From: a virus
Direction: 5' to 3' (one strand)
Virus record (IMG/VR): IMGVR_UViG_3300025699_000025
Coordinates: 1 to 35,934 of that record
Length of the DNA stretch: 35,934 nucleotides
Shown: positions 12,891 through 35,934 of the stretch, piece by piece
Layout of the letters: each line of letters opens with the position of its first letter
Position numbering within the stretch: position 1 is the first letter of the stretch
The notes under the pieces: model-generated
Told to the model about the DNA's origin: nothing
Databases searched by the model: none
What the model saw: only the letters and a program-made list of their open reading frames with translations
Program-made: the position numbers and the translations under genes

Positions 12891-13272
12891 CTCGAACTAC
12901 AAAACCATTACTAACGAGACTTGGTATCAGATTACTATCAAATTTAACACATTCGCCTTCTTCACATATACCTTTTTCAGTATGTAATTTTGCGTCTGCA
13001 CCTTTTTTAGTAACAATGCATTTATAATATTTAATATCATAAGGCACTGATTGGGTTAATTCTACGTTTTTTTCTTGCATTGCACGCAAAATTTTAGATT
13101 TTTTGTTTATTTTATGGTAATCAGACTCTTTTATTTTAACACCACAAATACCGCAATGTATGTTTGGTGCAAATATATGTTCATCTTGTGTTTTATCACT
13201 ACCCGTATCTAATACAATATTTAAAAAATAAGTAGGCGTGTTTTTTTTATTATTACAATGGCAAATTTTCAT
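12880..13272 (-). CDS. Zn-ribbon protein with a CIVTKKG domain shared with a capsid-region gene
   Basis: A 130-residue protein. The N-terminal part has cysteine/histidine pairs (ICHCNN near the start and IHCGICG around residue 50) suggesting a zinc ribbon. The C-terminal 50 residues (KCIVTKKGADAKLHTEKG...VKFDSNLIPSLVSNGFVVRVID) resemble the second half of the 72-residue protein at 32267-32485. It is the last gene of the leftward replication block. Its 3' end overlaps the convergent late gene by 11 bases, with no obvious terminator between them. Function unknown. Confidence 0.7.
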   Translation of the reverse strand: MKICHCNNKKNTPTYFLNIVLDTGSDKTQDEHIFAPNIHCGICGVKIKESDYHKINKKSKILRAMQEKNVELTQSVPYDIKYYKCIVTKKGADAKLHTEKGICEEGECVKFDSNLIPSLVSNGFVVRVID

Positions 13273-13282
13273 ACTGTGTATC

Positions 13283-13705
13283 TTAATTTTTTAATTTTTT
13301 TAATAATGTCTGTAATTTTTTTTTATTGTGTTTACCCGTAAAACTATTATGCACTTGCGTTTTGTTTGTTTCTACAATGTATTTGTGTACTTCTTTTTCT
13401 ATTATATCTTCACTCTCTAATATAGACATTGGCATTTTTTGCGTTTTATTATTTATTGTAATTGTTGGATTGTAACTCTCAATACCCCTGTAATGTATGT
13501 AGTTAGTAACTTTTTTTGTGTTAATAATATGATGCGAATAATGTGTTTCTGTTGTGCCATCTATGTTTTTTATTATTATTGGCTGCTTGTAAAAATATGT
13601 AATAACATATAAAACTTTCCAACTAAGTAAATAATTTGCACTATCTACTATAGAGTTGTTTTGCTTAGATAATTCATATGTTATCGTATCTACAATATTT
13701 GACAT
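13283..13705 (-). CDS. Hypothetical protein of the replication block
   Basis: A 140-residue protein that I do not recognise. It is Asn/Ile/Lys-rich, with a hydrophobic-aromatic patch (LSWKVLYVITYFYKQPIIIKN) too polar at its ends to be a clear membrane span. The C-terminus is basic (GKHNKKKLQTLLKKLKN). Its start overlaps the upstream gene stop by one base (TAATG type). It has more A/T-ending codons than its neighbours, which may mean recent acquisition. Conserved direction and tight packing support it as a real gene. Confidence 0.6.
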   Translation of the reverse strand: MSNIVDTITYELSKQNNSIVDSANYLLSWKVLYVITYFYKQPIIIKNIDGTTETHYSHHIINTKKVTNYIHYRGIESYNPTITINNKTQKMPMSILESEDIIEKEVHKYIVETNKTQVHNSFTGKHNKKKLQTLLKKLKN

Positions 13706-14037
13706 TACTTATCAATTCTAGTTATGGCTTCGTACCTATCATCAATTACAGAATTGTTTAACATAGCATCTCGCAGTATAATAAGGCCAGCTATAGCTTT
13801 AGTTATATGTGATAATCCCGAATCCTGGTCACAATCCTCACCACCATAAAATGCCATTAGATGTCTTAGTGCTGCGCTGTAATAATCGCTGTAATGCAGT
13901 TTTTCCCATCTCCAATTATAAGTACCATATTTGTCAGCACCTTCGGTCATGGCATCTGCAACCTCATTAAGCACTTGGACAGGCATATGGTGATACTGCC
14001 TTTTCTGTAATCCTGCTTCTCTCTTTTTATTTTTCAA
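13705..14037 (-). CDS. DUF5664 / dATP-dGTP diphosphohydrolase-like protein
   Basis: A 110-residue protein with the pattern of the DUF5664 (dGTP_diPhyd_N) family: MPVQVLNEVADAMTEGADKYGTYNWRW, YYSAALRHLMAFYGGEDCDQDSG and LSHITKAIAGLIILRDAM. Members are MazG-like all-helical nucleotide pyrophosphohydrolases. Some act in 2-aminoadenine phages as MazZ. The acidic residues expected to bind Mg are present (E18 region; E-D-D near 77-81). No PurZ or special polymerase is visible here, so general clean-up of the nucleotide pool is the more likely job. It overlaps ninB by 11 bases. Confidence 0.8.
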   Translation of the reverse strand: MKNKKREAGLQKRQYHHMPVQVLNEVADAMTEGADKYGTYNWRWEKLHYSDYYSAALRHLMAFYGGEDCDQDSGLSHITKAIAGLIILRDAMLNNSVIDDRYEAITRIDK

Positions 14038-14458
14038 GGTCTCTCACTCCTATTCCAAACCTTACAGCAAAAGCTTCTATAAGAGACTGTAGATCATTGT
14101 GTTCGTCTTTAGTCATGCTTCTGGTAGACATACCAACAGGTATCTGCTCACGCCCATGTTCGTCTGGCATAAATTTATTGCCGCGTAACATATGGCAAAA
14201 GTAATCCTTCCATTCTTCTGGGCTATACTTCTCACCTGACTTTAATCCTGACTTTAATACTGTGTGATATCCCTCAAATTCATTCCATCGCATAGCTACT
14301 GATATAGTTGATAGCAATGCCCATAGCCTAGAGTTTTGCGGTATGGTTCTGACATTCCTGGTATAACGCACATATGTACCAATAGGTGAGTGGTCGATAA
14401 GGCGTTTACACTCCACCTTATCTGCTTCACATTTTATCTGTACTGTATGCTGACCCAT
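14027..14458 (-). CDS. ninB: NinB-like recombination protein (lambda Orf family)
   Basis: A 143-residue protein with the NinB/Orf signature: IPQNSRLWALLSTISVAM, EEWKDYFCHMLRG, and GMSTRSMTKDEHNDLQSLIEAFAVRFGI near the C-terminus. Family members bind single-stranded DNA and SSB and help load the phage recombinase, replacing host RecFOR. It starts directly after the ssb stop with no gap, and sits in a cassette of SSB, YqaJ exonuclease and ERF annealase. This is a complete phage recombination set. Confidence 0.85.
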   Translation of the reverse strand: MGQHTVQIKCEADKVECKRLIDHSPIGTYVRYTRNVRTIPQNSRLWALLSTISVAMRWNEFEGYHTVLKSGLKSGEKYSPEEWKDYFCHMLRGNKFMPDEHGREQIPVGMSTRSMTKDEHNDLQSLIEAFAVRFGIGVRDLEK

Positions 14459-14890
14459 CTAAAATGGTATCTCGTCGTTAAGGTCTACAGGCTTCGCCAC
14501 AGGAGCATAACCACCTCTGTCTGCACCAACACTACCAAAACTGTTCTCACGGCTATCCAGGAGCGTTATAACACCTGTAAACCCCTTTAAAACTATCTCA
14601 GTCATAGATTTTTCGTTGCCAGACATATCTTGCCACTTTCTTGTCTGTATTTTGCCTTCAACATAAAGCTTACTACCTTTAGTTACATAGCGCTCTACAA
14701 TACCTATCAAACCTTCTGAGAACACAGCTACTTTATGCCATTCAGTTTTAGATTGCATCTCACCTGTGCTGCGGTCTTTCCATTTGTCAGTCGTTGCTAG
14801 GCTAAAGTTTGCTACTTTATTGCCATTAGCAAATGTCTTTATTTCTGGGTCGTTACCAACGTTGCCAATTAGTGTTGCTTTGTTAATCAT
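14459..14890 (-). CDS. ssb: Single-stranded DNA-binding protein
   Basis: A 143-residue OB-fold SSB. It opens with MINKATLIGNVGNDPEIK, continues with VANFSLATTDKWKDRSTGE, the WHKVAVFSEGL strand and KGSKLYVEGKIQTRKWQD, then a short Gly/Ser linker and the acidic tail DLNDEIPF that recruits partner proteins. Length is somewhat below the bacterial norm because the linker is short, as usual in phages. It overlaps the exonuclease gene upstream (ATGA) and should act in replication and recombination with the neighbouring genes. Confidence 0.95.
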   Translation of the reverse strand: MINKATLIGNVGNDPEIKTFANGNKVANFSLATTDKWKDRSTGEMQSKTEWHKVAVFSEGLIGIVERYVTKGSKLYVEGKIQTRKWQDMSGNEKSMTEIVLKGFTGVITLLDSRENSFGSVGADRGGYAPVAKPVDLNDEIPF

Positions 14891-15525
14891 GTTTTTTCCT
14901 TTTTTAGTTGATTAAGTTTTTCTACAAGCGCGTTTACTTCTTCGTTTGCACTTTGTATTTCTGATAATATTTCTGCTTGCATTTGCTTGTCAGCTTCTAC
15001 ACGGCAAACAGCAAGCTGTAAACCCTCTGGAAACCTTGGATCATACCCGGCAATGTCTACCCACTGCCTACCTGTAACAAGTAATTGATGCTGTAACTGT
15101 ATTTGGTATTCTTTAGCGTGTGCATCTTTTTCAAGGTAGCTTACCATTTTAGCCATACTTGCAGGGCATTTGATTTCTACTAAACCATCATCTCCCACTA
15201 AACCATCTGGACTACAAGTGATGTGATCATGCTGTGGATGTATGACCATGCCAACCTCCGTTACGATTACATCTGTTTCAAAGGAGTAAAAATTTCGCGC
15301 TTCTGGTTCAAGCTCGTTCCCTCTCTGCATGGCCGCATTACTATAAGTTTCCTCAATCTCGCCTGTCATGCGCTCTAAGGCAAGCTTAACAATCATATTC
15401 TTGCGCGATGTACTATATCCAGATTTTGTCTTAGCAAGTATGTCTTTAACGCGAGATGCAGTAAAATTACCACACCTCGCACTAAACCACTCTGGGCTAC
15501 CTTGCTGTACGTCTACGATTTTCAC
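14887..15525 (-). CDS. YqaJ-type (lambda Exo-like) recombination exonuclease
   Basis: A 212-residue PD-(D/E)XK nuclease. It opens with QQGSPEWFSARCGNFTASR, the classical YqaJ start. It has QRGNELEPEA (about 68-76), then the active-site strands CSPDGLVG (about 104-111) and GLVEIKCP (about 114-121) supplying Asp, Glu and Lys. A LQHQLLVTGRQWVDIAGYDPRF segment follows and a helical charged tail ends the protein. It should degrade one strand from double-strand ends to make the overhang used by the ERF annealase encoded just upstream (ATGA overlap). Confidence 0.92.
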   Translation of the reverse strand: MKIVDVQQGSPEWFSARCGNFTASRVKDILAKTKSGYSTSRKNMIVKLALERMTGEIEETYSNAAMQRGNELEPEARNFYSFETDVIVTEVGMVIHPQHDHITCSPDGLVGDDGLVEIKCPASMAKMVSYLEKDAHAKEYQIQLQHQLLVTGRQWVDIAGYDPRFPEGLQLAVCRVEADKQMQAEILSEIQSANEEVNALVEKLNQLKKEKT

Positions 15526-16118
15526 GCTTCTGCTTTCTCAACAGCAATCAATGTAGCTTTTTGTTCTGCCCAGGCTTGTCGCAACTTAGCTTTTGCATTG
15601 GCAGGTAACTTAGCAGATTTAATTTCCTTAGCAACTGTAGCAAGGGAATCATTATCCATTGATTCTGATATCTTTATAAACATAGGCTCTAGGTCAACTG
15701 ACTTAACGTCGTCTTGCTGTTTACCTAATGAACTGCCGTTACCATCATCATCTTCTGCTGGCATATTGACTGCCGCCATTAATCCATATCTACGCAAATA
15801 GGAAATAGAGCTGCCAATGTCTTGGGGTGCGAATGATTTAGGCTTTGCCTCGCAGACTGTTTCTAACCATTCTCCGCTAGTATGTAGCAATCGTGTAGAC
15901 ATAACGACTGTATTGCTTTCAGTAATACCGCCTTGGCATTGTATCACAGCTATTCCGTTTTCTAATAGCGGTAACCTAGCGGCATCTACAACACTTGATA
16001 GTGTTGCGTAGCTTGATTTGAAGTGTGGGTTTCTGCCGTCTTTAGCGGCTCCCTGGATAGAGCCTATAGCTTTTACAAGCGCAGGCGCAATTTTAGTTAT
16101 TGTTTCTGAAGTTTTCAT
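15522..16118 (-). CDS. erf: ERF-family single-strand annealing protein
   Basis: A 198-residue ERF recombinase. Visible family features are HFKSSYATLSSVVDAARLPL (about 32-51), the strand stretch MSTRLLHTSGEWLE, and the highly characteristic GSSISYLRRYGLMAAVNMPAEDDDGN (about 102-127). It anneals complementary single strands, working with the downstream exonuclease, SSB and NinB. In P22 the equivalent circularises the genome. The binding site is AAAGGA 9-10 bases before ATG 16118. Confidence 0.93.
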   Translation of the reverse strand: MKTSETITKIAPALVKAIGSIQGAAKDGRNPHFKSSYATLSSVVDAARLPLLENGIAVIQCQGGITESNTVVMSTRLLHTSGEWLETVCEAKPKSFAPQDIGSSISYLRRYGLMAAVNMPAEDDDGNGSSLGKQQDDVKSVDLEPMFIKISESMDNDSLATVAKEIKSAKLPANAKAKLRQAWAEQKATLIAVEKAEA

Positions 16119-16159
16119 AATGTTTTCCTTTATTAATATGTATATACTACGGATTTATT

Positions 16160-16843
16160 TTACGTTGTCAATTTATTTTTTTCTATATATTTTTCATAAA
16201 CGCTCTTACCCTCCTCTTTTGTTATTTTATCATTCAAGTACCCTGCATATAATTCTTTAATACCTAAGCAAGCAACAATACTCGCTGCATAAGCATAATT
16301 GTTTTTCTTTTGTTGTGCATCGTTATAATAGCCTCTAATAGCATCAGCCAACGTGTTAGGGTCGTGTTCATTACATAGCTGTACAAATCTAGCATATGCT
16401 CTTTTTTTACCGCCCTGCCTAGATTTAACTAGCTTACTATTAATCTCACTCCAAACCTGTTCAAAAAGCTCTTTATGTTTACTTGTTTGTTCAACTTGTA
16501 TGTTAGTATGCATCTCCTGCACTATCGGTGGTGCAACTCTTGCACGCAGGTCATGCACCTCCTGCACAGGGTAACAAGCAGTATATTCATTGCTATCGTG
16601 TCCACCATTATCACTTTTCTTCTTTGTAATTACAACATAGCCAGCCTTCTCCGCTTTCTTTAAATGTGTAAATACACTTCTCAAACTCATACCACTGCTT
16701 TGTGCTATTTTCTTTGCACCCGGAAAGCATTGCTCATTCTTAGCATTCATGTAAGTACGCAATGTCAGCAATACTAATCTAGTCATTGGCTCTAAATTGC
16801 TTTTTGTGATGGCATCTTCCCATCCCCAAATCCCTTTTTTCAT
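16160..16843 (-). CDS. Winged-helix replication protein (helicase-loader/initiator-like)
   Basis: A 227-residue protein. Residues 1-75 form a winged-helix domain of the phage replication-initiator type (GIWGWEDAITKSNLEPMTRLVLLTL, then CFPGAKKIAQSSGMSLRSVFTHLKKAEKAGYVVITKKK). The C-terminal part (about 125-227) is helical (FEQVWSEINSKLVKSRQGGKKRAYARF; AASIVACLGIKELYAG), like the domain in phage proteins that hand DnaB to the origin. Its stop region overlaps nothing downstream, while its start overlaps the dnaB stop by 4 bases, so helicase and loader are made together. The exact role is inferred from fold and location. Confidence 0.75.
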   Translation of the reverse strand: MKKGIWGWEDAITKSNLEPMTRLVLLTLRTYMNAKNEQCFPGAKKIAQSSGMSLRSVFTHLKKAEKAGYVVITKKKSDNGGHDSNEYTACYPVQEVHDLRARVAPPIVQEMHTNIQVEQTSKHKELFEQVWSEINSKLVKSRQGGKKRAYARFVQLCNEHDPNTLADAIRGYYNDAQQKKNNYAYAASIVACLGIKELYAGYLNDKITKEEGKSVYEKYIEKNKLTT

Positions 16844-18240
16844 TTTCGACTCCTATAATCTTGGTTTGGATTATCTATAAACATTCTTGATAGCTCACAA
16901 TATAAATTGACTTCACCTATGTTGCCATGTCTGTTTTTTGTTACAATCATTTCAAGTTTGTTTTGCCCTTCGGTTAATCTTGCTGTTAAGTCATTGTCAT
17001 TACCTCTGGCGTTTCTGGCTTCGCGTTCAGCATAGTAGAAATCTCTATAGATACCTATCACGCAACTTGCATCTTGCTCAATATGACCAGATTCTCTGAG
17101 ATCACTAAGCTGTGGCCTCTTATCATCTCTTTGCTCTACTGCCCTGGATAGTTGGCATAATGCCAGTACGGGTACTTCGTACTGCTTTGCTATGGATATC
17201 AGCGCATTACTAACTTCAGTAACCTTTTCATAGTTTGATTGCCCTGGCCGCGTTCCAGCAACGTGACCGATATGGTCAATAATAAGTAACTTCAAATCAC
17301 TACCGCTTGCACGTAACGAGCGTATGGCTCTGTTGGTCACTAGCTTGATGTTGTTGAGGTTTAATCCAACACCTTCTTCCCATTCAATAGGTAGTTTAGC
17401 AAATATGTCTGCAGCTCTCTGTATCTTATCTCTTAATTTGTTTTCGCGCCATGCGTGTCGCAACTGACTGTAAATTGGAAAATTCTGTGGCCCATATGCA
17501 GTAGCGCCAATACTACTGATAATTCTTTCAGTTTGGCCGCTGTTAGTCATCTCAAGTGATAAAAACACTACACCTTTTCTCTGCATAGCTACATTTTTTG
17601 CAATGTTTAAGGCTACTGCTGACTTGCCCATTGATGGCCTTCCTGCCATAACATAAACTCTGCCCGGGACAAATCCACCGAGCATCTGGTCAAGATGAAA
17701 GTAACCAGAGTAACAGCTTGCTTGCTCTTTATCTGCGTTCAAGTCTGCTATGAAAGTATCTGATAACTGTTTTGATGTTTCACTTTTGGTAAGCTGCTTA
17801 TTGCCATCAAGCATAACAGCATCGATATCAGCAACGTAATCTTGCAATACAGTATCTATTGCTTGCTCATTGTCATTCAATTTGCCTTGCAAAGCTCTGG
17901 TAAGATAATCTGCCTCTCTACGTTTAGCGTAATCTATAACTATCTCGGAGTATGACTTAACTACATTTTCGTCACCAGCAAAAGTATGAACACACGTTGC
18001 CAAATATTCTGCTAGGTCAACATCAACTTCTAACATTGTCAATTGGTTCTTTACGTATATTGCATCGACGCTGTGTCCAGATGTTAGCCTGTCGCTGATG
18101 ATAATATATATCTTACTGTTTATTGGGTTGTAGAAGTGTTGTTGCGCTAGGCTGTTGCTAACTACATCGTAGTAGTCGTTATCGCGTAATAGACCGCCTA
18201 TAATGGCCTGTTCAGCCTCTGGTGAGTGATAATCTTGCAT
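16840..18240 (-). CDS. dnaB: Replicative DNA helicase, DnaB-like
   Basis: A 466-residue DnaB homologue. The N-terminal helical domain begins SPEAEQAIIGGLLRDNDYYD. The RecA-like domain has Walker A in GRPSMGKS (200-207), the LSLEM motif after it, Walker B in LLIIDHIGHV, and the SRAVEQRDDKRPQLSDLRESGHIEQDA segment containing the arginine-finger region. It unwinds DNA at the fork; the phage has no own polymerase, so it must recruit the host replisome. The ribosome binding site is AAAAGGATT before ATG 18240, and a promoter candidate lies at 18265-18293. Confidence 0.95.
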   Translation of the reverse strand: MQDYHSPEAEQAIIGGLLRDNDYYDVVSNSLAQQHFYNPINSKIYIIISDRLTSGHSVDAIYVKNQLTMLEVDVDLAEYLATCVHTFAGDENVVKSYSEIVIDYAKRREADYLTRALQGKLNDNEQAIDTVLQDYVADIDAVMLDGNKQLTKSETSKQLSDTFIADLNADKEQASCYSGYFHLDQMLGGFVPGRVYVMAGRPSMGKSAVALNIAKNVAMQRKGVVFLSLEMTNSGQTERIISSIGATAYGPQNFPIYSQLRHAWRENKLRDKIQRAADIFAKLPIEWEEGVGLNLNNIKLVTNRAIRSLRASGSDLKLLIIDHIGHVAGTRPGQSNYEKVTEVSNALISIAKQYEVPVLALCQLSRAVEQRDDKRPQLSDLRESGHIEQDASCVIGIYRDFYYAEREARNARGNDNDLTARLTEGQNKLEMIVTKNRHGNIGEVNLYCELSRMFIDNPNQDYRSRK

Positions 18241-18264
18241 TTTTTAATCCTTTTTGCTTGCAAT

Positions 18265-18293
18265 ATGTTATATTGTATTTATTATTATGTAAA
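18265..18293 (-). promoter_or_regulatory. Candidate sigma70 promoter for the dnaB operon
   Basis: Reading leftward, TTTACA (18293-18288), a 17-base spacer and TAACAT (18270-18265) precede dnaB by about 25 bases. The interval to the upstream gene is 124 bases, the only sizeable gap in the leftward block, and also holds the inverted repeat ATTGG-GGAAA-CCAAT. Inferred from consensus match only. Confidence 0.5.
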
Positions 18294-18364
18294 GCCATTG
18301 GTTTCCCCAATAGTGATGGCATCTGGGCGGTAGTTTTCTAATCCTTTTCTATCGCCCTATTTTT

Positions 18365-18694
18365 TTAGTACACCTCCAGGATAGTAATCCCATGCACAGC
18401 TTTCATAAGCTTCTTAACTAGCCTGTAGCGTGCTTGCTTGGCAGTGATAGGTGATTTAACATCTTCCACTATTAATGTGCCTTCTTTGTTCTTGTATTGA
18501 CTGTCAGCAGTGTATCTACATATCTTTTGGTCATTTACTAATATCTGGTAGACTGGGTGTATCTCAAGGTCTGATATCTCACCATCTTTTAAGCGCTGCT
18601 TGTTGTGCAGGTATCTTGCGTGCTCACGCTTGCTGTCAAATGTCATACCATCATCTTTGACCTTGATGGCGTTGTATTTGTTACGTTTATACAT
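18365..18694 (-). CDS. DUF1064 phage nuclease-like protein
   Basis: A 109-residue protein. I use ATG 18694, which overlaps the HNH gene stop as TGATG; a TTG three bases earlier is less likely. It matches the DUF1064 pattern: NKYNAIKVKDDGMTFDSKREHARY, IHPVYQILVNDQKICRYTADSQYKNKEGTLIVEDVKSPITAKQARYRLVKKLM. The E-x-x-(x)20-40-D-x-(x)n-EDVKS arrangement is that of a PD-(D/E)XK nuclease fold. Family members are proposed phage endonucleases acting on recombination or replication structures. The exact substrate is unknown. Confidence 0.85.
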   Translation of the reverse strand: MYKRNKYNAIKVKDDGMTFDSKREHARYLHNKQRLKDGEISDLEIHPVYQILVNDQKICRYTADSQYKNKEGTLIVEDVKSPITAKQARYRLVKKLMKAVHGITILEVY

Positions 18695-19080
18695 CAATCA
18701 ATTTCCTTAATATTAGGTTTGTAGCTGTCGCCAAATCCACGCGATTGAATTTTTGTACGGCCAACAATTTTTTGTTTAGGCTTCTGACTTTTCTTAGTAG
18801 ACTTTGTTAAGCTTCTGACTTTCCTGCGGTTAGCCGCATCTCTCCTGTCTTTAGCGAGTCCGCAAGGCTTAACGCACCAAAGCGCTATGTTGCCTTCTTC
18901 ATGCTTGCCGCCAAATGCTCTTTGCATAATATGCTCAATGCGTATTTTACGTTGTTCAAATTCCAAATCTCTCCCACAGCCACAGCCACACTTGCCACAC
19001 TGCTCCATAGCTATCTTGGCGTACAAATAATTAGGTATTGTGCGGTACTTGACGTAATCCGGGTGCTCGCTAAACTTCAT
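18694..19080 (-). CDS. HNH endonuclease-like protein with altered third His
   Basis: A 128-residue protein. The frame extends to 19116, but ATG 19080 has a perfect AGGAGG seven bases upstream and is the preferred start. The HNH fold is visible: zinc-ribbon cysteines (CGKCGCGCGRDL), RIEHIMQRAFGGKHEEGNIALWC, then CGLAKDRRDAANRRK. In the family the last part is normally CH..KT..D; here the histidine position is glycine (PCGLAKD). The enzyme may be impaired, or may use another ligand. A basic tail (KSTKKSQKPKQKIVGRTK) would favour DNA binding. It overlaps both neighbours. Confidence 0.8.
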   Translation of the reverse strand: MKFSEHPDYVKYRTIPNYLYAKIAMEQCGKCGCGCGRDLEFEQRKIRIEHIMQRAFGGKHEEGNIALWCVKPCGLAKDRRDAANRRKVRSLTKSTKKSQKPKQKIVGRTKIQSRGFGDSYKPNIKEID

Positions 19081-19252
19081 CGAACAACCTCCTGAGCGCC
19101 TCTGTAGTTTCTTCATTCACAAGTTTCTGCCAGTAATGTTGTGATCTAGTATCTTTTCTCCGCTTTGCTCGGTGCAGCATCATGCGATTGAAGTAGGGAT
19201 GTTCAGTGTAAAAGGTTTCAGTGACTTCGCCTTCATGTTTTTGTATTTTCAT
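19070..19252 (-). CDS. Small hypothetical protein
   Basis: A 60-residue protein, charged and His/Arg-rich (YFNRMMLHRAKRRKDTRSQHYWQ), ending in an acidic helix (EETTEALRRLFDEV). It has a good ribosome binding site (AAGGAG, 7 bases) which itself covers the stop of the methyltransferase gene, so it is coupled to it. It overlaps the HNH start by 11 bases. No family recognised. Confidence 0.65.
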   Translation of the reverse strand: MKIQKHEGEVTETFYTEHPYFNRMMLHRAKRRKDTRSQHYWQKLVNEETTEALRRLFDEV

Positions 19253-19253
19253 T

Positions 19254-20267
19254 TTAATCTCCTTTATTTAATCTTGCAGACAACACTGTCCAAGCTTTAG
19301 CTGCTGTTGCAGGAACAACACCATTTCCAAGCATACGAATGCGGTCAACTCTGTTTTTCTTTACATCAGTTGTACGAGGCGTGTTACCCTCCCAATCCCC
19401 TGACCAATTATTTTGCCATTCATTGCTATCGCCATCCAGTGCAGTCCAACCAGGCGGTAAACCCATTAGTTTTTCGACCCAATCTGGATTCAGTGCTTTG
19501 CTGTCGGTTGTAGCTCGTACTGCGTCAGCTAAATTATTAGTCATTGGATTACGATTTTTTGCTTTACAAGTTTCAACGTTTTGCCCACCTTTATAATCTC
19601 TGGTGGCTGGTGTAGGCCAATTAACTTTGACTGCATCTGCTAACTTAGCGCCATACCAAGCGCTGTCTGGGTCTTTGCTGTGTTTTGATTTGTATTGACC
19701 ATTAACTATTTCAGTTGGATAGCCACCGCCTGTCGCGTCAAATACTGTAGCTGTCGGCCATGATAAAGACTCTTTTTCTTTGGTGCTGTGCGCCAACTTC
19801 ACGCGCGCTGAATATTCCCCACGTTGCATTGTAACCATCTTCTTCCAAGTCGCTAATGACTGTGGAGAGTCCAAGCGATATGTGACCTTCGACGTTTTCG
19901 AACATAACTCTATTAGGTCTAATTGCTTCCATGTGTTTTCTGATGACAGGCCACAAGTGTCTGGAATCGTCTTTTCCTTGTCTTTTACCTGCCTGTGAAA
20001 ACGGCTGACATGGATATCCTCCAGTGATGATGTCAACTTTGTTTCTAAAGATTTGTGCTGGGAAGGTTTTAAGATTCGTGTAAATAGGTGCAGCAGGAAT
20101 GAGTCCTCTTTCCATCTTCTGCACCAAGTTTGTAATGGCGAAGGCTTCGATCTCCACATAAGCGATTGTTCTATGTTCAAACCCTGCAAGATCAAGTCCT
20201 CTTTCGATTCCACCATATCCGCTGCAAAAGCTGACGACAGTTGGTAATTTTTCGGTAGCACCCACAT
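19254..20267 (-). CDS. Target-recognition and motif X half of cytosine methyltransferase, overprinting the catalytic half
   Basis: A 337-residue frame opening at ATG 20267, inside the stop of the preceding gene (TAATG). Residues 100-337 read as the target-recognition region and end of a C5 methyltransferase: TWKKMVTMQRGEYSARVKLA, two WPT modules (SWPTATVFDATGGG at 169-182; NWPTPATRDYKGGQ at 216-229), PDWVEKLMGLPPGW (261-274), and motif X in MLGNGVVPATAAKAW (312-326). It lacks the PCQ and ENV catalytic motifs; these lie in the overlapping frame (19738-20265). Residues 1-100 are unrecognised and may be only a by-product of overlap. It either pairs with that protein as a second subunit or supplies its C-terminus by frameshift. 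Confidence 0.75.
   Translation of the reverse strand: MWVLPKNYQLSSAFAADMVESKEDLILQGLNIEQSLMWRSKPSPLQTWCRRWKEDSFLLHLFTRILKPSQHKSLETKLTSSLEDIHVSRFHRQVKDKEKTIPDTCGLSSENTWKQLDLIELCSKTSKVTYRLDSPQSLATWKKMVTMQRGEYSARVKLAHSTKEKESLSWPTATVFDATGGGYPTEIVNGQYKSKHSKDPDSAWYGAKLADAVKVNWPTPATRDYKGGQNVETCKAKNRNPMTNNLADAVRATTDSKALNPDWVEKLMGLPPGWTALDGDSNEWQNNWSGDWEGNTPRTTDVKKNRVDRIRMLGNGVVPATAAKAWTVLSARLNKGD
19736..19743 (-). promoter_or_regulatory. Candidate +1 frameshift site (AUU UGA C)
   Basis: The catalytic frame ends ATT TGA C. Slipping one base forward at the stop reads GAC GCG ACA and enters the second methyltransferase frame exactly. The layout parallels CUU UGA C of bacterial prfB. No Shine-Dalgarno-like stimulator is seen just upstream, and Ile-tRNA re-pairing on UUU would be weak. 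Hence candidate only. Confidence 0.4.
19738..20265 (-). CDS. Catalytic half of C5-cytosine DNA methyltransferase (motifs I-VIII)
   Basis: A 175-residue protein starting at GTG 20265, two bases downstream of the ATG of the other frame, behind the same AGGGGAG. Motif I is FCSGYGGIERG (13-23). Motif IV is GGYPCQPFSQAG with the attacking cysteine C86. Motif VI is FENVEG (E123). Motif VIII is QHQRKRVFIMA (160-170). It transfers methyl from AdoMet to cytosine, probably guarding phage DNA from restriction. It stops at TGA right after motif VIII, so target recognition and motif X are missing; both occur in the +1 frame. The stop context ATT-TGA-C would allow a +1 shift giving a 336-residue product of normal length. 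Confidence 0.88.
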   Translation of the reverse strand: MGATEKLPTVVSFCSGYGGIERGLDLAGFEHRTIAYVEIEAFAITNLVQKMERGLIPAAPIYTNLKTFPAQIFRNKVDIITGGYPCQPFSQAGKRQGKDDSRHLWPVIRKHMEAIRPNRVMFENVEGHISLGLSTVISDLEEDGYNATWGIFSAREVGAQHQRKRVFIMADSYSI

Positions 20268-20476
20268 TAAAACTCCCCTCTACAAATCTTGTTTAGTTTG
20301 TGTAGTTGGTTAGGTGTTAATCTGCCTTTATGTAGCTTAATAATACATGACCACCGAGATTCCGGGATACCAAAGATGCGCCATTTTCTGACACTATCTT
20401 GTTTTATTTCTGTATTCTCTGAAATAGCTTTTGAGCCACCGCAATTTTTTATGATTGATTCAATTGTATGTTTCAT
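20267..20476 (-). CDS. Small Cro/YdaS-like helix-turn-helix regulator
   Basis: A 69-residue DNA-binding protein, first gene of the leftward replication block. The helix-turn-helix reads IIKNCGGSKAISENTEIKQDSVRKWRIFGIPESRWSCIIKL, the layout of small phage Cro-type repressors. A ribosome binding site AAAGGAG lies 7 bases before ATG 20476. The promoter before it has a 15-bp palindrome between its -35 and -10, the expected place for an autoregulatory operator. Its stop TAA forms TAATGTG with the two methyltransferase starts. That it binds the palindrome is inferred. Confidence 0.78.
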   Translation of the reverse strand: MKHTIESIIKNCGGSKAISENTEIKQDSVRKWRIFGIPESRWSCIIKLHKGRLTPNQLHKLNKICRGEF

Positions 20477-20575: not shown

Positions 20576-20602
20576 ATGAATTACGTTGGTAAAAATGCCT
20601 AA
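20576..20602 (+). CDS. Possible 8-residue leader peptide ORF
   Basis: ATG 20576 carries the strong AAAGGATTGAGAA binding site but encodes only MNYVGKNA before TAA 20600-20602. The ATG of the regulator gene (20595) lies inside it, in another frame, with a poor binding site of its own. Translation coupling is one reading. The other is a one-base difference in the A5 run (20591-20595), since one A fewer would fuse MNYVGK directly to the regulator. Confidence 0.45.
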   Translation: MNYVGKNA

Positions 20603-21176
20603 AAGATTTTGGACACAAGATAAGATATTACAAATAATAACATTATGGAAAGATGAAACACTTTCTGTAGATCAGATTGCAGCAGAGCTAGGCACTACTA
20701 AGTCCTCTGTTGATAAGTTTGCTCATCGCAACCGGGATACATTGCCAAAGCGCGGTCATCAAAAAAAACCAAAACCTGTCAAATTTAAATTAGTTCCTAA
20801 AGTATCTAATCAATATAAAAAATATACAGATATTAAAATAATACATAAATGCCGTAGACTTTTTGAGGCAGGATACAGCACCCCGGATATTTGTGAGTTG
20901 GCTGAAGTAAGTCAATCGACATTTTACAAAATGCGTAAATATGCACCTAAATATTTTATAAAAGTAAAAACGCCACAGCCAGAAAATATTATACCTGTGA
21001 AGTTTGCGCCTCCCGGAAAAGGTTATTATTTAAAATCTAATGGTGGATATTTACATTTAAGCGGCAAGACCTTAACATTAAATAGCAAATATGCTTGGCG
21101 CGGTACAGAGTATCAATGCACTCTTTTAATGAAAACATCACCATTTAAAAAGCTTATCGCTGTTAGAGAATATTAA
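20595..21176 (+). CDS. GcrA-like double-HTH transcriptional regulator
   Basis: A 193-residue protein; the TTG at 20586 is an alternative start. Residues 5-45 (RFWTQDKILQIITLWKDETLSVDQIAAELGTTKSSVDKFAHR) match the N-terminal DNA-binding domain of GcrA, the alphaproteobacterial cell-cycle regulator that binds methylated promoters with sigma70. A second HTH lies at about 83-112 (RRLFEAGYSTPDICELAEVSQSTFYKMRKY). The C-terminal 60 residues look like a small beta domain and are unassigned. It is the first gene of the rightward early operon, and its stop overlaps the NusG-like gene (TAATG). It probably redirects host RNA polymerase; the family link is by motif only. Confidence 0.68.
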   Translation: MPKRFWTQDKILQIITLWKDETLSVDQIAAELGTTKSSVDKFAHRNRDTLPKRGHQKKPKPVKFKLVPKVSNQYKKYTDIKIIHKCRRLFEAGYSTPDICELAEVSQSTFYKMRKYAPKYFIKVKTPQPENIIPVKFAPPGKGYYLKSNGGYLHLSGKTLTLNSKYAWRGTEYQCTLLMKTSPFKKLIAVREY

Positions 21177-21706
21177 TGTGGTACTTATTAAAAGTTAAAA
21201 CTGGCACAGAATTTAAAATTCATGATTTATTAACTGATAATAATATTGAAGTTTACAGCCCTTATGAGAAAAAAGCTGTTAGGCGTAGTAAGCAACAGAA
21301 AAAATCTAGGGTTCGAGTTAATTATATTTTGCCTGTTTTACTAGGTTATCTACTTATTAATGTAGATGATTTTACAGAAATTTATGATCTAATAAGCAAA
21401 TATAGAAATATTTATGGTCTGCTATACGATGGCACGTCACCATATCGACTGCATGACAGCGTTATTAGTGAGCTAAAAGAAATATATCCTGTTGGTTATA
21501 AAACAGGTAAATTAAAAAATAGTATTGAGCAAATCAAACCGAGATATAAAAAAAATGATATATTAAAAATTGATAGTGGGCCTTTTACTGGGTTACAGAT
21601 ATCTGTATTGTCAGTCACTGACAGCAATCTAATAGGTAATCTGCAAATATTAGGGGCGGCAAGAGCAGTCACAGTAGCTTTAGACGAAATTAGGCTAAAC
21701 AAATGA
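21176..21706 (+). CDS. Phage NusG/RfaH-like transcription elongation (antitermination) factor
   Basis: A 176-residue protein. It begins MWYLLKVKTGTEFKIHDLL, followed by NIEVYSPYEKKAVRRSKQQ and LPVLLGYLLINVD, the NGN domain that binds the polymerase clamp. A KOW-type segment follows (KKNDILKIDSGPFTGLQISVLSV, about 122-144). Length and order fit NusG/RfaH. A phage copy would make host RNA polymerase ignore terminators on phage operons. It is cotranscribed with the GcrA-like regulator upstream and a small HTH protein downstream (overlaps TAATG and ATGA). Whether it acts on the leftward or late operon is unknown. Confidence 0.82.
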   Translation: MWYLLKVKTGTEFKIHDLLTDNNIEVYSPYEKKAVRRSKQQKKSRVRVNYILPVLLGYLLINVDDFTEIYDLISKYRNIYGLLYDGTSPYRLHDSVISELKEIYPVGYKTGKLKNSIEQIKPRYKKNDILKIDSGPFTGLQISVLSVTDSNLIGNLQILGAARAVTVALDEIRLNK

Positions 21707-24033: not shown

Positions 24034-24057
24034 AGGTCGCTCAGGTGGCCTTTTTTT
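24034..24057 (+). terminator. Rho-independent terminator of the rightward accessory unit
   Basis: AGGTCGC-TCAG-GTGGCCT makes a 7-bp stem with two G-T pairs, followed by seven T residues (24051-24057). Confidence 0.85.
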
Positions 24058-24376
24058 ATGTCTAAATAGTATATAGAAGATAGTACTTAGAATAGATAAG
24101 GGACTATTAATAATGTTTTTTAGATCTTTACTGATACATAAACCCAATAAAATCGCGCTTTCATTCTATTTTAGAGTGGTAAATGGTGGTTATCAGGGGC
24201 TAAGAAATCAAAAATCCTCTGTAAACCTCTACAACAGCCCCCCTGGAGCAGGTATTTTTTGATAACCAATCATACCAAGCTATACACAAAACGCTCTCAG
24301 CGGCCATCCTACGAGACTTTTTATATTGATATTTATGGAACAAAACATGAACATGGGGTAGCAGCCGATTTGGCAT
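24058..24376. other. Non-coding interval with long inverted repeat
   Basis: I find no convincing gene here. The notable structure is TGGTTATCA-GGGGCT (24187-24201), which can pair with AGCCCC (24236-24241) and TGATAACCA (24260-24268). This makes a long interrupted stem with a 34-base loop and an 18-base bulge. The interval lies between two terminators facing it from either side, so a small RNA, a protein-binding site or an origin would fit. None is proven. Confidence 0.55.
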
Positions 24377-24538: not shown

Positions 24539-25012
24539 TTAGCACCCTATCAATTCAATTTCGCAATCATGAATGCCCATTTCATCATTCTTGTATGATA
24601 AGGTAAAGTTATCACCCCACCAATAACCCTCAACTTGTCTGTCTTTTGTATTTATCCAGATGTTAGGGCCGCCAAATGCAACAAGAATCGCAAAACCTTC
24701 ACACATATGGTCAGGGTTAATTTGTAGTAATTCTTTATAATCTGTTTCGGATAATCTATAATATTCATTATCCCATTTATAAAAATCATCTAAATCAAAA
24801 TCATCTAAATCATTTTTATGTACTAAATATGTTGTTTCCAGCACGTCTTTTCTGTAATCAAAAGCTGATAAGATATCTCCCTCACTATAATCATAATCAT
24901 AATAACCGTTATCAATGTCATCTTTTGTGATTGTAATGCCTTGCTCAATGTCATTAACTATTGACCGAACGTGGCTCTCAATGTCGCTTATTTTTTCTTT
25001 TGTGTTTGTCAT
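24539..25012 (-). CDS. Acidic protein with GGPNIWINT...VEGYWWGD motif; DNA-mimic candidate
   Basis: A 157-residue protein. ATG 25012 is chosen for GAAAGGATTAAAGATT upstream; the frame is open from 25039. Residues 20-110 are extremely acidic and Tyr-rich (DIDNGYYDYDYSEGDILSAF; NDLDDFDLDDFYKW). The C-terminal part has the distinct pattern ILVAFGGPNIWINTKDRQV and EGYWWGDNFTLSY, which I have seen in small proteins of plasmids and phages without an established function. The acidic surface would suit a DNA mimic that blocks restriction enzymes, but this rests on composition only. Confidence 0.7.
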   Translation of the reverse strand: MTNTKEKISDIESHVRSIVNDIEQGITITKDDIDNGYYDYDYSEGDILSAFDYRKDVLETTYLVHKNDLDDFDLDDFYKWDNEYYRLSETDYKELLQINPDHMCEGFAILVAFGGPNIWINTKDRQVEGYWWGDNFTLSYKNDEMGIHDCEIELIGC

Positions 25013-25028
25013 AATCTTTAATCCTTTC

Positions 25029-25181
25029 TTAAAATTCATAATCTAATATAGTACAGACATTCTCGTGACATATAAAAGAGCTAGGCTCTTGCAATGCTTT
25101 TAATATGTTTTCATTTTCTAATGCTATATTTGGGCAAATGTAACGCTCGTTACATTCAATAATAAATTGTTGCTTTGTCAT
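25029..25181 (-). CDS. 50-residue cysteine-containing hypothetical protein
   Basis: ATG 25181 follows AAAAGGATTAAGATT; the stop is TAA 25031-25029, just before the next gene. The sequence begins MTKQQFIIECNERYICPN and ends SSFICHENVCTILDYEF. Four cysteines (two CX5-6C pairs) could bind a metal. No family recognised. It is the first gene of the leftward unit from the promoter at 25212-25239. Confidence 0.6.
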   Translation of the reverse strand: MTKQQFIIECNERYICPNIALENENILKALQEPSSFICHENVCTILDYEF

Positions 25182-25239: not shown

Positions 25240-25318
25240 GTTAATTTATACCCCCCCCTTATATATATTTGTGAATTATTTGACTGTTGCAAACGCGCAA
25301 CAACTCAGACAAAGCAGG

Positions 25319-25362
25319 ATGTTCACCTTTTGTTCCCGGAGGGTATGTTCACCTTTTGTTCC
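25319..25362. promoter_or_regulatory. Two tandem LexA-type boxes (GTTC-N7-GTTC)
   Basis: ATGTTCACCTTTTGTTCC occurs at 25319-25336 and again, identically, at 25345-25362, with a 26-base period. Each contains GTTC-ACCTTTT-GTTC, which matches the direct-repeat LexA operator of Alphaproteobacteria exactly. No phage LexA is visible, so the host LexA would be the ligand. Confidence 0.65.
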
Positions 25363-25450
25363 TAGCACCCCACCCCACCATCTTATATATATTTATATGT
25401 TTAACTTTATATATACATCACCACCTATTTTTATATCCCCATTTTTTTTC

Positions 25451-25479
25451 TTGAATTTTTTTTGCCCTGTGGTAATTAT
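25451..25479 (+). promoter_or_regulatory. Weak candidate late promoter
   Basis: TTGAAT (25451-25456), a 17-base spacer and AATTAT (25474-25479), about 100 bases before the first late gene. The match is modest. The late genes may instead depend on a regulator such as the GcrA-like protein. Confidence 0.3.
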
Positions 25480-25583
25480 ACAACAGATGATGCCGCGCGT
25501 TCAACCAATATTGAAGCCTCGCACCTCGCCTTTTGTTAAGGCCTATGGGGGAATTGCGTCATTTTTTTTTGGAAAAATTTTTT

Positions 25584-25694
25584 ATGAAACCTTGTAAATC
25601 ATGTACCAGTCCTAAGACCTGTCAGAAGATGGGTAAGTGTAAAAAGCGTTCTAGTAAGCGTAAATCAAGCGGTTATAAGATACCTGGGTATTAG
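25584..25694 (+). CDS. 36-residue Cys-rich basic protein, first late gene
   Basis: ATG 25584 to TAG 25692-25694. The sequence starts MKPCKSCTSPKTCQKMGKCK and continues with a Ser/Lys/Arg tail ending YKIPGY. The CxxC..C..C spacing suggests a zinc or disulfide knot. The ribosome binding site is weak (GGAAAAATTTTTT). Ten bases after its stop the next gene begins with TAGGAG upstream. Function unknown. Confidence 0.6.
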   Translation: MKPCKSCTSPKTCQKMGKCKKRSSKRKSSGYKIPGY

Positions 25695-25703
25695 GAGTAT
25701 ATT

Positions 25704-26384
25704 ATGTTTGGTAGACCTGGATTAGATAGATTTAATAAACCTGGCGGTGGTCGTCGTAATAATATGGGTACAGCACCTTTGCAACGTGCAACTAAACAAC
25801 CTGGTTTTGCTGGCGGTATGATGCGTCAACAACAACCAATGCAAACACCAAAACAACCTATGATGCAAAATTCTGTGCCAGACTACATAAAATCAAGACC
25901 TGATGTTGCACAAATGCCACAGCCTACAATGCCAAACATAAACACAATAAATGATAGAGATATGTTTATGCCTAAGCAGCCAGAGCAAGGATACATAAAA
26001 TCAACACCAGGTATAGGTGATATGCAGCCAATGGGCAGCGAAAACATAGGCATGAGCAATCCTATATCCGACAGCAGATTATTTAATCGTGCTAATATGC
26101 GGCAAAATATGGATATGCAAAGAGATCTAATACCTAACGATTATCAGCCAACAAGAGAAACTATGCCACCACGCGCAATGACAAATGACATTGTACCACA
26201 AAGACCACAATTTAACAGACCGCAATTTATGGGTAACATTGGTGGCGCGAACAGGCTTAATCCGCAAATGCAAAATCCATTTAATAATTATAATCGCATG
26301 ATGCAACAACAAACATTAAACAATCAAATAAGAGGTATGGGTTCAATATCTGATGCAGAATTGAGGCAAAGAAATGGGTTTTAA
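25704..26384 (+). CDS. Disordered Met/Gln/Pro/Asn-rich protein upstream of terminase
   Basis: A 226-residue protein with TAGGAG 7 bases before the ATG. The whole chain is low in complexity, rich in Met, Gln, Pro, Asn and Arg (MMRQQQPMQTPKQPMMQN). It has a repeated short unit: PDYIKSRPDVAQMPQP (about 59) and GYIKSTPGIGDMQPMG (about 95). There are no hydrophobic core segments, so it is probably intrinsically disordered. A virion or packaging-accessory role is suggested only by location; no family recognised. It overlaps the small terminase gene by 11 bases. Confidence 0.65.
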   Translation: MFGRPGLDRFNKPGGGRRNNMGTAPLQRATKQPGFAGGMMRQQQPMQTPKQPMMQNSVPDYIKSRPDVAQMPQPTMPNINTINDRDMFMPKQPEQGYIKSTPGIGDMQPMGSENIGMSNPISDSRLFNRANMRQNMDMQRDLIPNDYQPTRETMPPRAMTNDIVPQRPQFNRPQFMGNIGGANRLNPQMQNPFNNYNRMMQQQTLNNQIRGMGSISDAELRQRNGF

Positions 26385-26661
26385 GCCGGGACATAAGAAA
26401 ACAGGTGGCCGACAAAAAGGTACACCCAATAAGCAAACTGCATTGTTAAAAGATGCAATATTGCAAGCTGCGATCAAAACAGGTGGCGGTAAAGATGGTC
26501 TTGTTAAGTATTTACGTGAACGTGCAGAAGAAAATCCTGCCGCATTTATGACGTTGCTAGGCAAGGTATTGCCAATGCAAGTGGCTAATGATGATAGCGG
26601 TGAGCCATTTAAAATAATAAATAAAATAGAATTGACAGCACCAAAAAGTGACAGCAATTAA
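26374..26661 (+). CDS. Terminase small subunit-like protein (DUF5681-type N-terminus)
   Basis: A 95-residue protein beginning MGFKPGHKKTGGRQKGTPNK, the DUF5681-like motif that often starts phage small terminases. A helical segment follows (LLKDAILQAAIKTGGGKDGLVKYLRERAEENPAAFMTLLGKVLP) and a tail ends the protein. It should recognise phage DNA and stimulate the large subunit. Location directly before terL, with a 14-base overlap, supports this. It is shorter than most small terminases. Confidence 0.75.
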   Translation: MGFKPGHKKTGGRQKGTPNKQTALLKDAILQAAIKTGGGKDGLVKYLRERAEENPAAFMTLLGKVLPMQVANDDSGEPFKIINKIELTAPKSDSN

Positions 26662-27964
26662 CATAGAATTACCACCTAAGCTTATACCTGTGTTTGAAGG
26701 TAAGGCTGATTTTAGAGGCGCATATGGCGGCAGAGGTAGTGCTAAGACACGTAGTTTTGCCATGATGACAGCTGTAAGAGGCGCAATGCTTGCAAGTAAC
26801 GGAGAAAGTGGACAAATACTTTGCGCTCGTGAGCAGTTAAACAGTTTAAATGATAGTAGTTTTGCTGAGGTAAAAGCAGCTATATTAGGTAATCAATGGT
26901 TGTCACAATGTTATGAGGTAGGCGAAAAGTTTATAAGAACTAACCCTAAGATGCCAGGGCGTGTTGATTATAGTTTTAGCGGACTAAGGCATAACCTTGA
27001 AAGTATTAAGTCAAAAGCGCGTATTATGCTCTGCTGGATTGACGAAGCAGAACCTGTAAGCGAATTAGCTTGGAGTAAACTACTCCCTACAATTCGTGAA
27101 GAAGGCTCTGAAATATGGGTAACATGGAACCCAGAACGCAAAGGTAGTGCTACAGACCAACGCTTTAGGCAAGAACCGCCTGAAAGCAGTAAAATAGTAC
27201 AAATGAACTGGAAAGATAACCCTTGGTTTAATAAAACCCGATTAGCTAATCAGCGTGTAGAAGATCAGGAAAAACGACCAGACAGCTATGAATGGATATG
27301 GGAAGGCGACTATGCCAGTGTGCATGAAGGCGCATATTTCTCTAAACTACTAGCACAAGCTGAACGTGATAAACGCATAGTTGATAGTCTACCTATTGAC
27401 CCGGCATTGCCTGTATATGGCTTTCACGATATTGGCGGCTCTGGTGCTAAAGCTGATAGTTATACTATTTGGTTAGCGCAGTTTGTAGGTGATTGGATAC
27501 ACATACTTGACCATTACATAGCACAAGGTCAGGTACTTAGTTATCACATTAATGAGATGCGTAGACGATGGCCTCACGCTATTATGCAACTACCGCATGA
27601 TGGTGTTAATGAGAATAGCTGGACAGGCAAAAGAATAGAAGATCATTGGAGAGATGGTGGGTTTGAGGTGTTAAAACCATTAACAAACCAAGGTAAAGGC
27701 GCAGCAATGCAACGCGTTGAAGCTGTAAGACGCATACTGCCTAAATGTAAGTTTGTTAGAGAAAAAACACAGGCTGGCCGAGTATCACTTGGTTGGTATC
27801 ACGAAAAGCGCCCTGCTGATGGCCGTGAAATAGGACTTGGCCCTAATCACGATTGGTCATCACATGATGCTGATAGTTTTGGATTAATGGCAATAATGTC
27901 GGATAGATTTGTTAGACGTAAAGCAAAACCACTGATAATGCCTAACTACGGAAGTGCAATATAA
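26648..27964 (+). CDS. terL: Terminase large subunit
   Basis: A 438-residue packaging motor starting at GTG 26648. The ATPase domain has Walker A in YGGRGSAKT (27-34), Walker B in IMLCWIDEAEP with D132-E133, and the coupling segment WVTWNPERKG. The nuclease domain shows FHDIGGSGAKADSYTIW (about 258-274) and MQLPHDGVNENSWTGKR (about 315-331), with further acidic metal ligands near HDWSSHDADS. It pumps and cuts the genome, consistent with circularly permuted ends from headful packaging. Its stop overlaps the portal start (TAATG). Confidence 0.95.
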   Translation: MTAINIELPPKLIPVFEGKADFRGAYGGRGSAKTRSFAMMTAVRGAMLASNGESGQILCAREQLNSLNDSSFAEVKAAILGNQWLSQCYEVGEKFIRTNPKMPGRVDYSFSGLRHNLESIKSKARIMLCWIDEAEPVSELAWSKLLPTIREEGSEIWVTWNPERKGSATDQRFRQEPPESSKIVQMNWKDNPWFNKTRLANQRVEDQEKRPDSYEWIWEGDYASVHEGAYFSKLLAQAERDKRIVDSLPIDPALPVYGFHDIGGSGAKADSYTIWLAQFVGDWIHILDHYIAQGQVLSYHINEMRRRWPHAIMQLPHDGVNENSWTGKRIEDHWRDGGFEVLKPLTNQGKGAAMQRVEAVRRILPKCKFVREKTQAGRVSLGWYHEKRPADGREIGLGPNHDWSSHDADSFGLMAIMSDRFVRRKAKPLIMPNYGSAI

Positions 27965-34471: not shown

Positions 34472-35934
34472 TGTTAGTACCATTAAACATTCCGCCCGGT
34501 GTTTACACTAACGGCACAGAGTATCAGTCTAAAGGCCGTAACTTTGATGCTAATCTTGTGCGTTGGCAATTTGGTGCATTAGGGCCAATGGGTGGCTGGA
34601 GACAGAGAACAACTACAACTGTAAGCGGCAAGGCAAGACGTGTTATATCTTGGCGTGATAACAACAACCAAGTATGGGCTGCGATAGGAACAAATAGCCA
34701 TTTATATGCTATGACAGCTGGCGGTGCTGTAACAGATATTACGCCTAGCGGATTAACTGCCGGGCGTGCAGATGCAGATACAGGCGCTGGATTTGGCACA
34801 GGTTTGTATGGACAAGGGCCGTATGGAGTTAGTAACCCTGCTGTGGTAAGCACTACAAACCCTGCAAGCATATGGTCACTAGATACATTTGGTCAGATAT
34901 TGTTAGGTGTATTGCCTGATGACGGCAAACTGTACGAATGGAATGTAAACGTTAATGTTGATGCTACGCAAGTAACAAATGCGCCTGTAGACAACAGAGC
35001 AGTATTAGTAACGCCAGAGCGTATTGTGATGTGCCTTGGCGCAGCAGGAGTGCCAAGAGATGTTGCTTGGTCAGATCAAGAAGATAGAAACCAATGGACA
35101 GCAGCAGCTAACAATCAAGCTGGTAACTTTAGTTTACAAACAGCTGGTACAATATTAAATGCGGTCAATGTTAAAGGTGGTAGTCTTATATTTACAGATA
35201 AAGACGTATGGCGCGTTGTATATTTAGGGCCGCCATTAGTGTACGGATTTCCACAAGATAATGCTGGTGGTGGTTTAGTATCTGCTGGTGCGGTGACAAC
35301 GGCTGATGGCGCAGCATATTGGATGTCACATGAAAATTTTTATGTACATACAGGTTACAGTCAACCTATAGCTTGCGACGTACATGATGCAGTGTTTAAA
35401 GACATTAACAGAGCGCAAATTAGTAAAGTTACTGCTTGGCATAACGCATCATTCGGTGAAGTTTGGTGGTTTTACCCTAGTGCTGATAGCACTGAAAATG
35501 ACAAATATGTGGTTTATGACTACAGAGAAAGGCATTGGAATAAAGGCAGTTTATCGCGATTATGTGCGACAGACAAAGCGCCATTACCATATCCAATAGC
35601 TGTAGATGCTACTGGCAAGATATATGACCATGAGTTTGGATATGACCACAATGGCGATGTTAGTTTTATTGAACATGGGCCTGTAGAATTAGGTACAGGT
35701 GAAAATAGCTCTAATCTTACGTTTTTATACCCTGATGAAAGCGCACAAGGCGACGTTAGCATAACCTTTAAAAGTAAAATGTACCCTAACGGCACAGAAC
35801 GTAGTTTTGGCCCATACACAGCAACTCGGCAACCTGTACCAATAAGAGTACATGGCAGACAAATGCTTGTTAAAGCAATAGGCGCAGAGTCAACTAATTG
35901 GAGGCTTGGTGTACCGCGTATTGAAGTTAAACCA
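34471..35934 (+). CDS. Tail stabilisation/hub-type protein (P22 gp10-like), 5' part
   Basis: The frame starts at ATG 34471 (TAATG overlap) and remains open to the window end, 488 codons; the last residues are at the left edge (to 346), giving 492 in total. It begins LVPLNIPPGVYTNGTEYQSK, with DANLVRWQFGALGPMGGW. Beta-propeller-like repeats follow (VISWRDNNNQVWAAIGTNSH; GSLIFTDKDVWRVVYLGPP; ASFGEVWWFYPSADS; NDKYVVYDYRERHWNKG). This WRV-YDY-W pattern is that of podovirus tail hub/stabilisation proteins such as P22 gp10, which seal the packaged head. Assignment is from pattern and gene order. Confidence 0.8.
   Translation, partial: MLVPLNIPPGVYTNGTEYQSKGRNFDANLVRWQFGALGPMGGWRQRTTTTVSGKARRVISWRDNNNQVWAAIGTNSHLYAMTAGGAVTDITPSGLTAGRADADTGAGFGTGLYGQGPYGVSNPAVVSTTNPASIWSLDTFGQILLGVLPDDGKLYEWNVNVNVDATQVTNAPVDNRAVLVTPERIVMCLGAAGVPRDVAWSDQEDRNQWTAAANNQAGNFSLQTAGTILNAVNVKGGSLIFTDKDVWRVVYLGPPLVYGFPQDNAGGGLVSAGAVTTADGAAYWMSHENFYVHTGYSQPIACDVHDAVFKDINRAQISKVTAWHNASFGEVWWFYPSADSTENDKYVVYDYRERHWNKGSLSRLCATDKAPLPYPIAVDATGKIYDHEFGYDHNGDVSFIEHGPVELGTGENSSNLTFLYPDESAQGDVSITFKSKMYPNGTERSFGPYTATRQPVPIRVHGRQMLVKAIGAESTNWRLGVPRIEVKP
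35604..35934. repeat. Right copy of imperfect terminal redundancy
   Basis: Corresponds to 1-331 with 13 silent differences, all after the first 126 bases. Examples are GGA/GGC, AGG/AGA, CAG/CAA, CTA/CTT and GTA/GTT in one run of codons (GRQMLV). The contig was probably closed across two co-existing strain variants. Confidence 0.95.

Follow-up and report, generated by a model that had tools for sequence, protein, structure and literature searches.

Tandem LexA-type boxes as candidate host-repressor operators at the early/late junction of a podovirus-like phage genome

A few temperate phages are known to make use of the LexA repressor of their host. The closest tested precedent for the arrangement described here is the late promoter P3 of Bacillus phage GIL01, at which tandem high-affinity LexA operators, dinBox2 and dinBox3, are associated with delayed late expression (PMC6182141; PMC4551915). 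GIL01 resembles the phage analyzed here in having no dedicated repressor and in carrying two adjacent boxes for host LexA at its late-gene control region (PMC6182141; PMC4551915), a likeness that on our side is a prediction. The two differ in most other respects. GIL01 is a tectivirus of a Gram-positive host, its boxes are palindromic, and it needs the phage proteins gp7 and gp6, the latter a LexA homologue, whereas the present phage is tailed, has direct-repeat boxes of the alphaproteobacterial type and no LexA homologue that we could find, and is known from sequence alone.

A second comparison is with the alphaproteobacterial phages controlled by host CtrA, for which the term "lytic deferment" has been used in a study that also mentions earlier LexA cases (PMC9437464). 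There too, sites for a host regulator are clustered in a divergent intergenic region in several phage lineages (PMC9437464); those sites are for CtrA (TTAA-N7-TTAA) and are backed by gel shifts and expression data, whereas ours are predicted sites for LexA, read from the DNA. GTTCN7GTTC is the LexA motif of Caulobacter (PMC12700426), and the same GTTC-N7-GTTC box is found at the alphaproteobacterial SOS promoters recA, lexA, imuA, dnaE2, umuD and dinB. The recA and lexA upstream regions that we examined carry single boxes and no tandem arrays, in contrast to the tandem boxes of the phage. A literature search, with most subscription journals outside its coverage, found no prior report of the motif in phages of this kind.

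The order of genes in the window, by which we mean the whole stretch of DNA analyzed (35,934 bases), is like that of a podovirus. The early genes, at 12880-20476, are oriented leftward and encode a single-strand binding protein, a YqaJ exonuclease, an Erf annealing protein, an O-like initiator, a DnaB helicase, an HNH nuclease and a methyltransferase. Transcribed rightward (20586-21706) are a D5-like regulator with two HTH regions and then a NusG-like antiterminator. An accessory island of small genes separates the NusG-like gene from the late operon, which continues after the large terminase with portal, scaffold, major head protein and tail genes. The features that bear on the control region are listed below.

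570-584, minus strand: formal GTTC-N7-GTTC match within ORF 537-908
24338-24352, minus strand: LexA-type box 3, GTTCATGTTTTGTTC, between a rightward (24034-24051) and a leftward (24402-24382) terminator-like site
24539-25039, minus strand: accessory gene of 166 aa, assigned to no family, with a homologue on the opposite strand in L005
25212-25239, minus strand: possible promoter driving the accessory genes leftward, TTGATA-16-TAGAAT with an extended -10, about 80 bp from box 1, a consensus match only
25285-25302, strand-neutral: palindrome TGTTGC-N6-GCAACA, located 18 bp upstream of box 1
25321-25335, plus strand: LexA-type box 1, GTTCACCTTTTGTTC, exactly GTTC-ACCTTTT-GTTC
25347-25361, plus strand: LexA-type box 2, same sequence as box 1, period 26
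25363-25703, plus strand: conserved late leader, comprising a CACCCC-rich tract, TATATATA, and then the run to the late operon
25704-27964, plus strand: start of the late operon, encoding a 226-aa protein, a 95-aa likely small terminase and the large terminase (26648-27964)

An earlier note on this DNA had described two identical copies of GTTC-ACCTTTT-GTTC with a 26-base period, and this proved exact for boxes 1 and 2. The identity extends to an 18-mer, ATGTTCACCTTTTGTTCC, present at 25319-25336 and again at 25345-25362, so that the two starts are 26 bases apart; box 3 lies in a near-copy of it (24337-24354, minus strand) that shares 16 of the 18 positions. Counting the motif over the whole window, in line with a check that the note had proposed, gave four occurrences of GTTC-N7-GTTC, three intergenic and one inside an ORF, against a shuffle mean of 0.61 (sd 0.85); four were reached in 1 of 100 shuffles. 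When GTTC-GTTC spacings from 0 to 30 were compared in the window, spacing 7 alone was enriched, with 4 matches as against 0 to 2 at the others. The three intergenic boxes fall within roughly 1 kb of non-coding DNA, which would almost never be expected from chance. Since boxes 1 and 2 are an exact duplication, it is safest to count only two independent boxes in intergenic DNA. Chance or coding probably accounts for the match at 570-584, and its recurrence in the near-identical L003 and L017 is explicable by coding identity alone. A mechanically called ORF that overlaps the pair (25271-25597) was rejected as coding, because relatives lose the whole 26-base unit, a difference that would shift its frame.

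Repeats of this kind might be replication iterons, or a functionless duplication arising by chance or slippage, and some relatives do have iteron-like arrays with an 11-bp period, while the 26-bp unit occurs in one or two copies among them. Both ideas seem to us extremely improbable, since the half-sites stay fixed while the spacers change, and the boxes far outnumber the control matches. Iterons of the lambda-O type, with 22-23 bp spacing, are moreover found inside the O-like gene at 16508-16567, and with typical iterons located there the boxes were rejected as origin iterons. Those repeats, three 15-base copies of the ATGCAYCTCCTGCAC type, likely mark a lambda-O-style replication origin.

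The reading of GTTC-N7-GTTC as a LexA operator of Alphaproteobacteria, also made in the earlier note, gained support from bacterial genomes. The variant GTTCAYGNTTTGTTC was matched 33 times in 289 genomes of Alphaproteobacteria, and the reversed control 4 times. Of 30 loci inspected, eight adjoin SOS genes, named by reading translations and not by family search: umuD at three (L224, L225 and L239), dnaE2 at two (L227 and L228), imuA at two (L229 and L249) and dinB at one (L248). An independent, unbiased set of 30 recA upstream regions contained GTTC-N7-GTTC in 15 cases, against none for the control, and six of seven lexA loci carried it. Two of the recA boxes, GTTCACCTCTTGTTC, are one base off the window box, and, by a matrix built from recA and lexA boxes, the spacer of the window box ranks among the best 3% of 7-mers taken at random from the window. 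The spacer type enriched in phages, ACGTTTT, departs from the recA/lexA consensus TACTTTT, so that affinity for LexA could be moderate. Box enrichment was not found at prophage loci (25 matches versus 48 for the control). By their sequence, the identification of the boxes as alphaproteobacterial LexA boxes is supported.

The earlier note's remark that the phage has no LexA or CI-like protease was also borne out: a search of the window record for Peptidase_S24 (PF00717) gave no match. Neither was an S24 peptidase detected in any of the 30 records searched (the window and 29 others, several being fragments), nor an integrase among the window proteins scanned. The tandem repeats are, in our judgement, probably operators for the LexA of an alphaproteobacterial host at the early/late junction. 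The operators would lie in a divergent control region, with the accessory genes leading away to the left and the late operon to the right. Dimers of host LexA would sit on the boxes, each on a pair of GTTC half-sites separated by one helical turn, and their occupancy would hold down transcription from the junction. The boxes would be cleared by RecA-triggered self-cleavage of LexA, or by replicated phage genomes outnumbering the repressor, and the junction would then be released. Given host-type LexA sites by the start of the virion genes and no sensor gene of its own, the phage probably reads the damage state of its host directly. We infer that LexA binds here, that it represses rather than activates, and that its target promoter is that of the accessory genes, of the late genes or of both.

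The distance from boxes 1 and 2 to the best match for a leftward promoter is about 80-150 bp, and no core promoter clearly overlapping them was found in the window. No late promoter was placed in the window with confidence; a sigma-70 candidate at 25451-25479 has just 8 matching positions out of 12, and we do not put it forward as one. The -35/-10 spacing of EcfG, the general-stress sigma factor, was absent over the boxes on inspection by eye. A second regulator may bind at the dyad TGTTGC-N6-GCAACA upstream of box 1. Dyads akin to this one occur near the boxes of the relatives L014 and L016 and of the unrelated phage L063 (TGTGACATATATGCAACA).

A terminase scan gave close relatives of the window in two near groups, A (98-100% identity) and B (84-86%). 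Conservation of the motif among relatives, a check that the earlier note had called for, was complete in group A, where every one of the 14 contigs that extend 1.4 kb or more upstream has one box or more, and failed in group B, in which the late genes are present (terminase about 85% identical) with no cassette and no intergenic boxes. Group B has the D5-like and NusG-like genes directly upstream of the terminase genes. In the group A boxes the GTTC half-sites are constant and the spacer is variable. Their arrangement takes several forms: one 26-bp unit in L001, L003, L004, L011 and L046, two in L008 and L010, overlapping 11-bp arrays in L006, L014 and L016, and boxes on both strands in L005, L012, L013 and L015. 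A minus-strand box 2.0-2.4 kb upstream of the terminase is also present in L001, L008, L010, L011 and L046. The genes that flank the boxes differ and lie in either orientation; they include an ArdC-type anti-restriction gene in L014 and L016, a GP88-type gene in L008 and L011, and others. The late leader, by contrast, is constant and begins directly after the boxes, at the CACCCC tract, and its start forms a mosaic boundary with the cassette. Because the boxes vary with the flanking genes while the leader does not, they belong, in this group, to a swapped accessory cassette.

The strongest rival explanation starts from this exchange. The boxes may be LexA operators of the accessory cassette only, serving a mobile SOS-inducible gene such as one for anti-restriction, with no role for the late genes. 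In its favor, the cassette genes point either way beside an unchanging leader while the boxes move with them, and phages that lack the cassette also lack the boxes. Furthermore, in L005, L012, L013 and L015 a gene and a terminator-like site intervene between the nearest boxes and the late leader, so that these boxes cannot act directly on the late promoter. We nevertheless think a role confined to the cassette unlikely, on account of unrelated phages (described below) in which the boxes keep their position and orientation relative to the terminase.

In L014 and L016 the ArdC-type gene (L014:5331-6221, L016:2025-2915) lies in the cassette beside the array of LexA-type boxes. Within that array both contigs also have a CtrA-type site, TTAACTATTTGTTAACC (L014:6454-6470, L016:3148-3164).

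The same relatives bear on the idea that the repeats bind a phage protein, for example the D5-like regulator (20586-21176); a protein with two DNA-binding domains would be well matched to a pair of direct half-sites. The protein does have two predicted HTH regions, and it adjoins the NusG-like antiterminator. In L005, L012 and L015, with a terminase nearly identical to that of the window, the paired D5-like and NusG-like copies are only about 55% and 44% identical, which indicates that the regulatory pair has been exchanged; yet in L012 and L015 the 15-base box is identical. Group B, moreover, keeps a D5-like protein (33% identity) without boxes, the motif also stands beside bacterial SOS genes, and the D5-like protein was detected in none of 27 other box-bearing records, some of them fragments. 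On this last ground a phage regulator common to all box-bearing phages was rejected, and binding by the D5-like protein appears most improbable.

Evidence for the reading that we prefer, host LexA operators at the junction, also comes from beyond the close relatives. When viral contigs were scanned for pairs of GTTC-N7-GTTC boxes at a distance of 26 bases, 72 stretches were obtained, some of them by chance. In 30 of the 37 contigs with a recognizable terminase, representing several terminase lineages, the tandem pair lies 0.75-2.3 kb upstream of the large terminase and on the same strand. A low-GC family of 15 contigs (L072, L074, L077, L084, L092, L093, L096, L098, L099, L106, L108, L110, L113, L121 and L129) has box 2 abutting a rightward TATAAT (CATAAT in one) before the small terminase gene, with a further box downstream in most members. 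Judged from sequence position, this geometry is that of a repressor site and offers the cleanest case for a direct repression of late genes by LexA; it also counts against an exclusive role in the cassette. The earlier note had placed the boxes ahead of the late genes. That description holds for tandem boxes in several unrelated lineages, but control of the late genes of the window itself is not established, with group A boxes travelling with the cassette and group B late genes doing without them. A nucleotide search among named phages gave trivial matches only; Sulfitobacter phage pCB2047-C, the nearest named phage checked, has only two boxes, each of them single and neither ahead of the terminase.

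A more stringent scan, which asked for two AYS-type boxes separated by 3-32 bases, found at least 119 stretches. In 80 of these contigs there were 280 AYS-type boxes against 0 for the reversed control; as with every count across contigs, these are not independent, many contigs being near-identical. As the contigs were selected for the motif, the placement of the boxes is more telling than their number. Only 11% of 246 boxes fall inside ORFs of at least 100 aa, which cover 68% of the bases, and 39% are in divergent gaps, against a baseline of 15%. Spacings within pairs vary between 11 and 56 and peak at 11, 22, 26 and 29-30, and a fixed 26-bp period was accordingly dropped as a structural rule.

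Dense arrays in many phages, with box number and arrangement varying freely, could also suggest a sponge, in which replicating genomes, each with several boxes, would draw off host LexA and induce the host genes for repair and mutagenesis to the benefit of the phage. A sponge would need no particular place, however, whereas the boxes favor divergent gaps and the position upstream of the terminase, and three boxes per genome are few. We rate this explanation as improbable.

A broader proposal can be put forward, tentatively and with more doubt than confidence. Many uncultured alphaproteobacterial phages, some without a repressor, integrase or LexA-like gene, may gate the early/late junction by arrays of host LexA sites, so that the SOS state, or dilution of LexA by replication, would time the production of virion or anti-defense genes. 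This would be a LexA counterpart of CtrA lytic deferment and would have evolved several times. If the boxes work as they look, host-LexA use would be common in environmental phages with GTTC-N7-GTTC and readable from sequence alone, and the timing with which such phages produce virions or anti-restriction proteins would follow a testable rule.

The boxes would then also be a host clue for uncultured contigs. The earlier note had taken them as support for its host assignment; the box type is indeed consistent with an alphaproteobacterium, but the argument is circular unless the host is shown independently, and when 84,980 species were searched for the host through prophages, the best terminase identity was 57%. 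Depletion of GANTC, with 51 sites and only mildly low, was not used as a clue.

Two minor observations concern the sequence itself. The CACCCC-rich tract and TATATATA(AT) follow the boxes both in the window (25363-25395) and in an unrelated family (L060, L075, L090, L122 and L127). Read by eye, the first ~330 bases of the window (1-330) recur with scattered differences as the last ~330 (35605-35934), which suggests that the record is probably circular with strain variation at the join.
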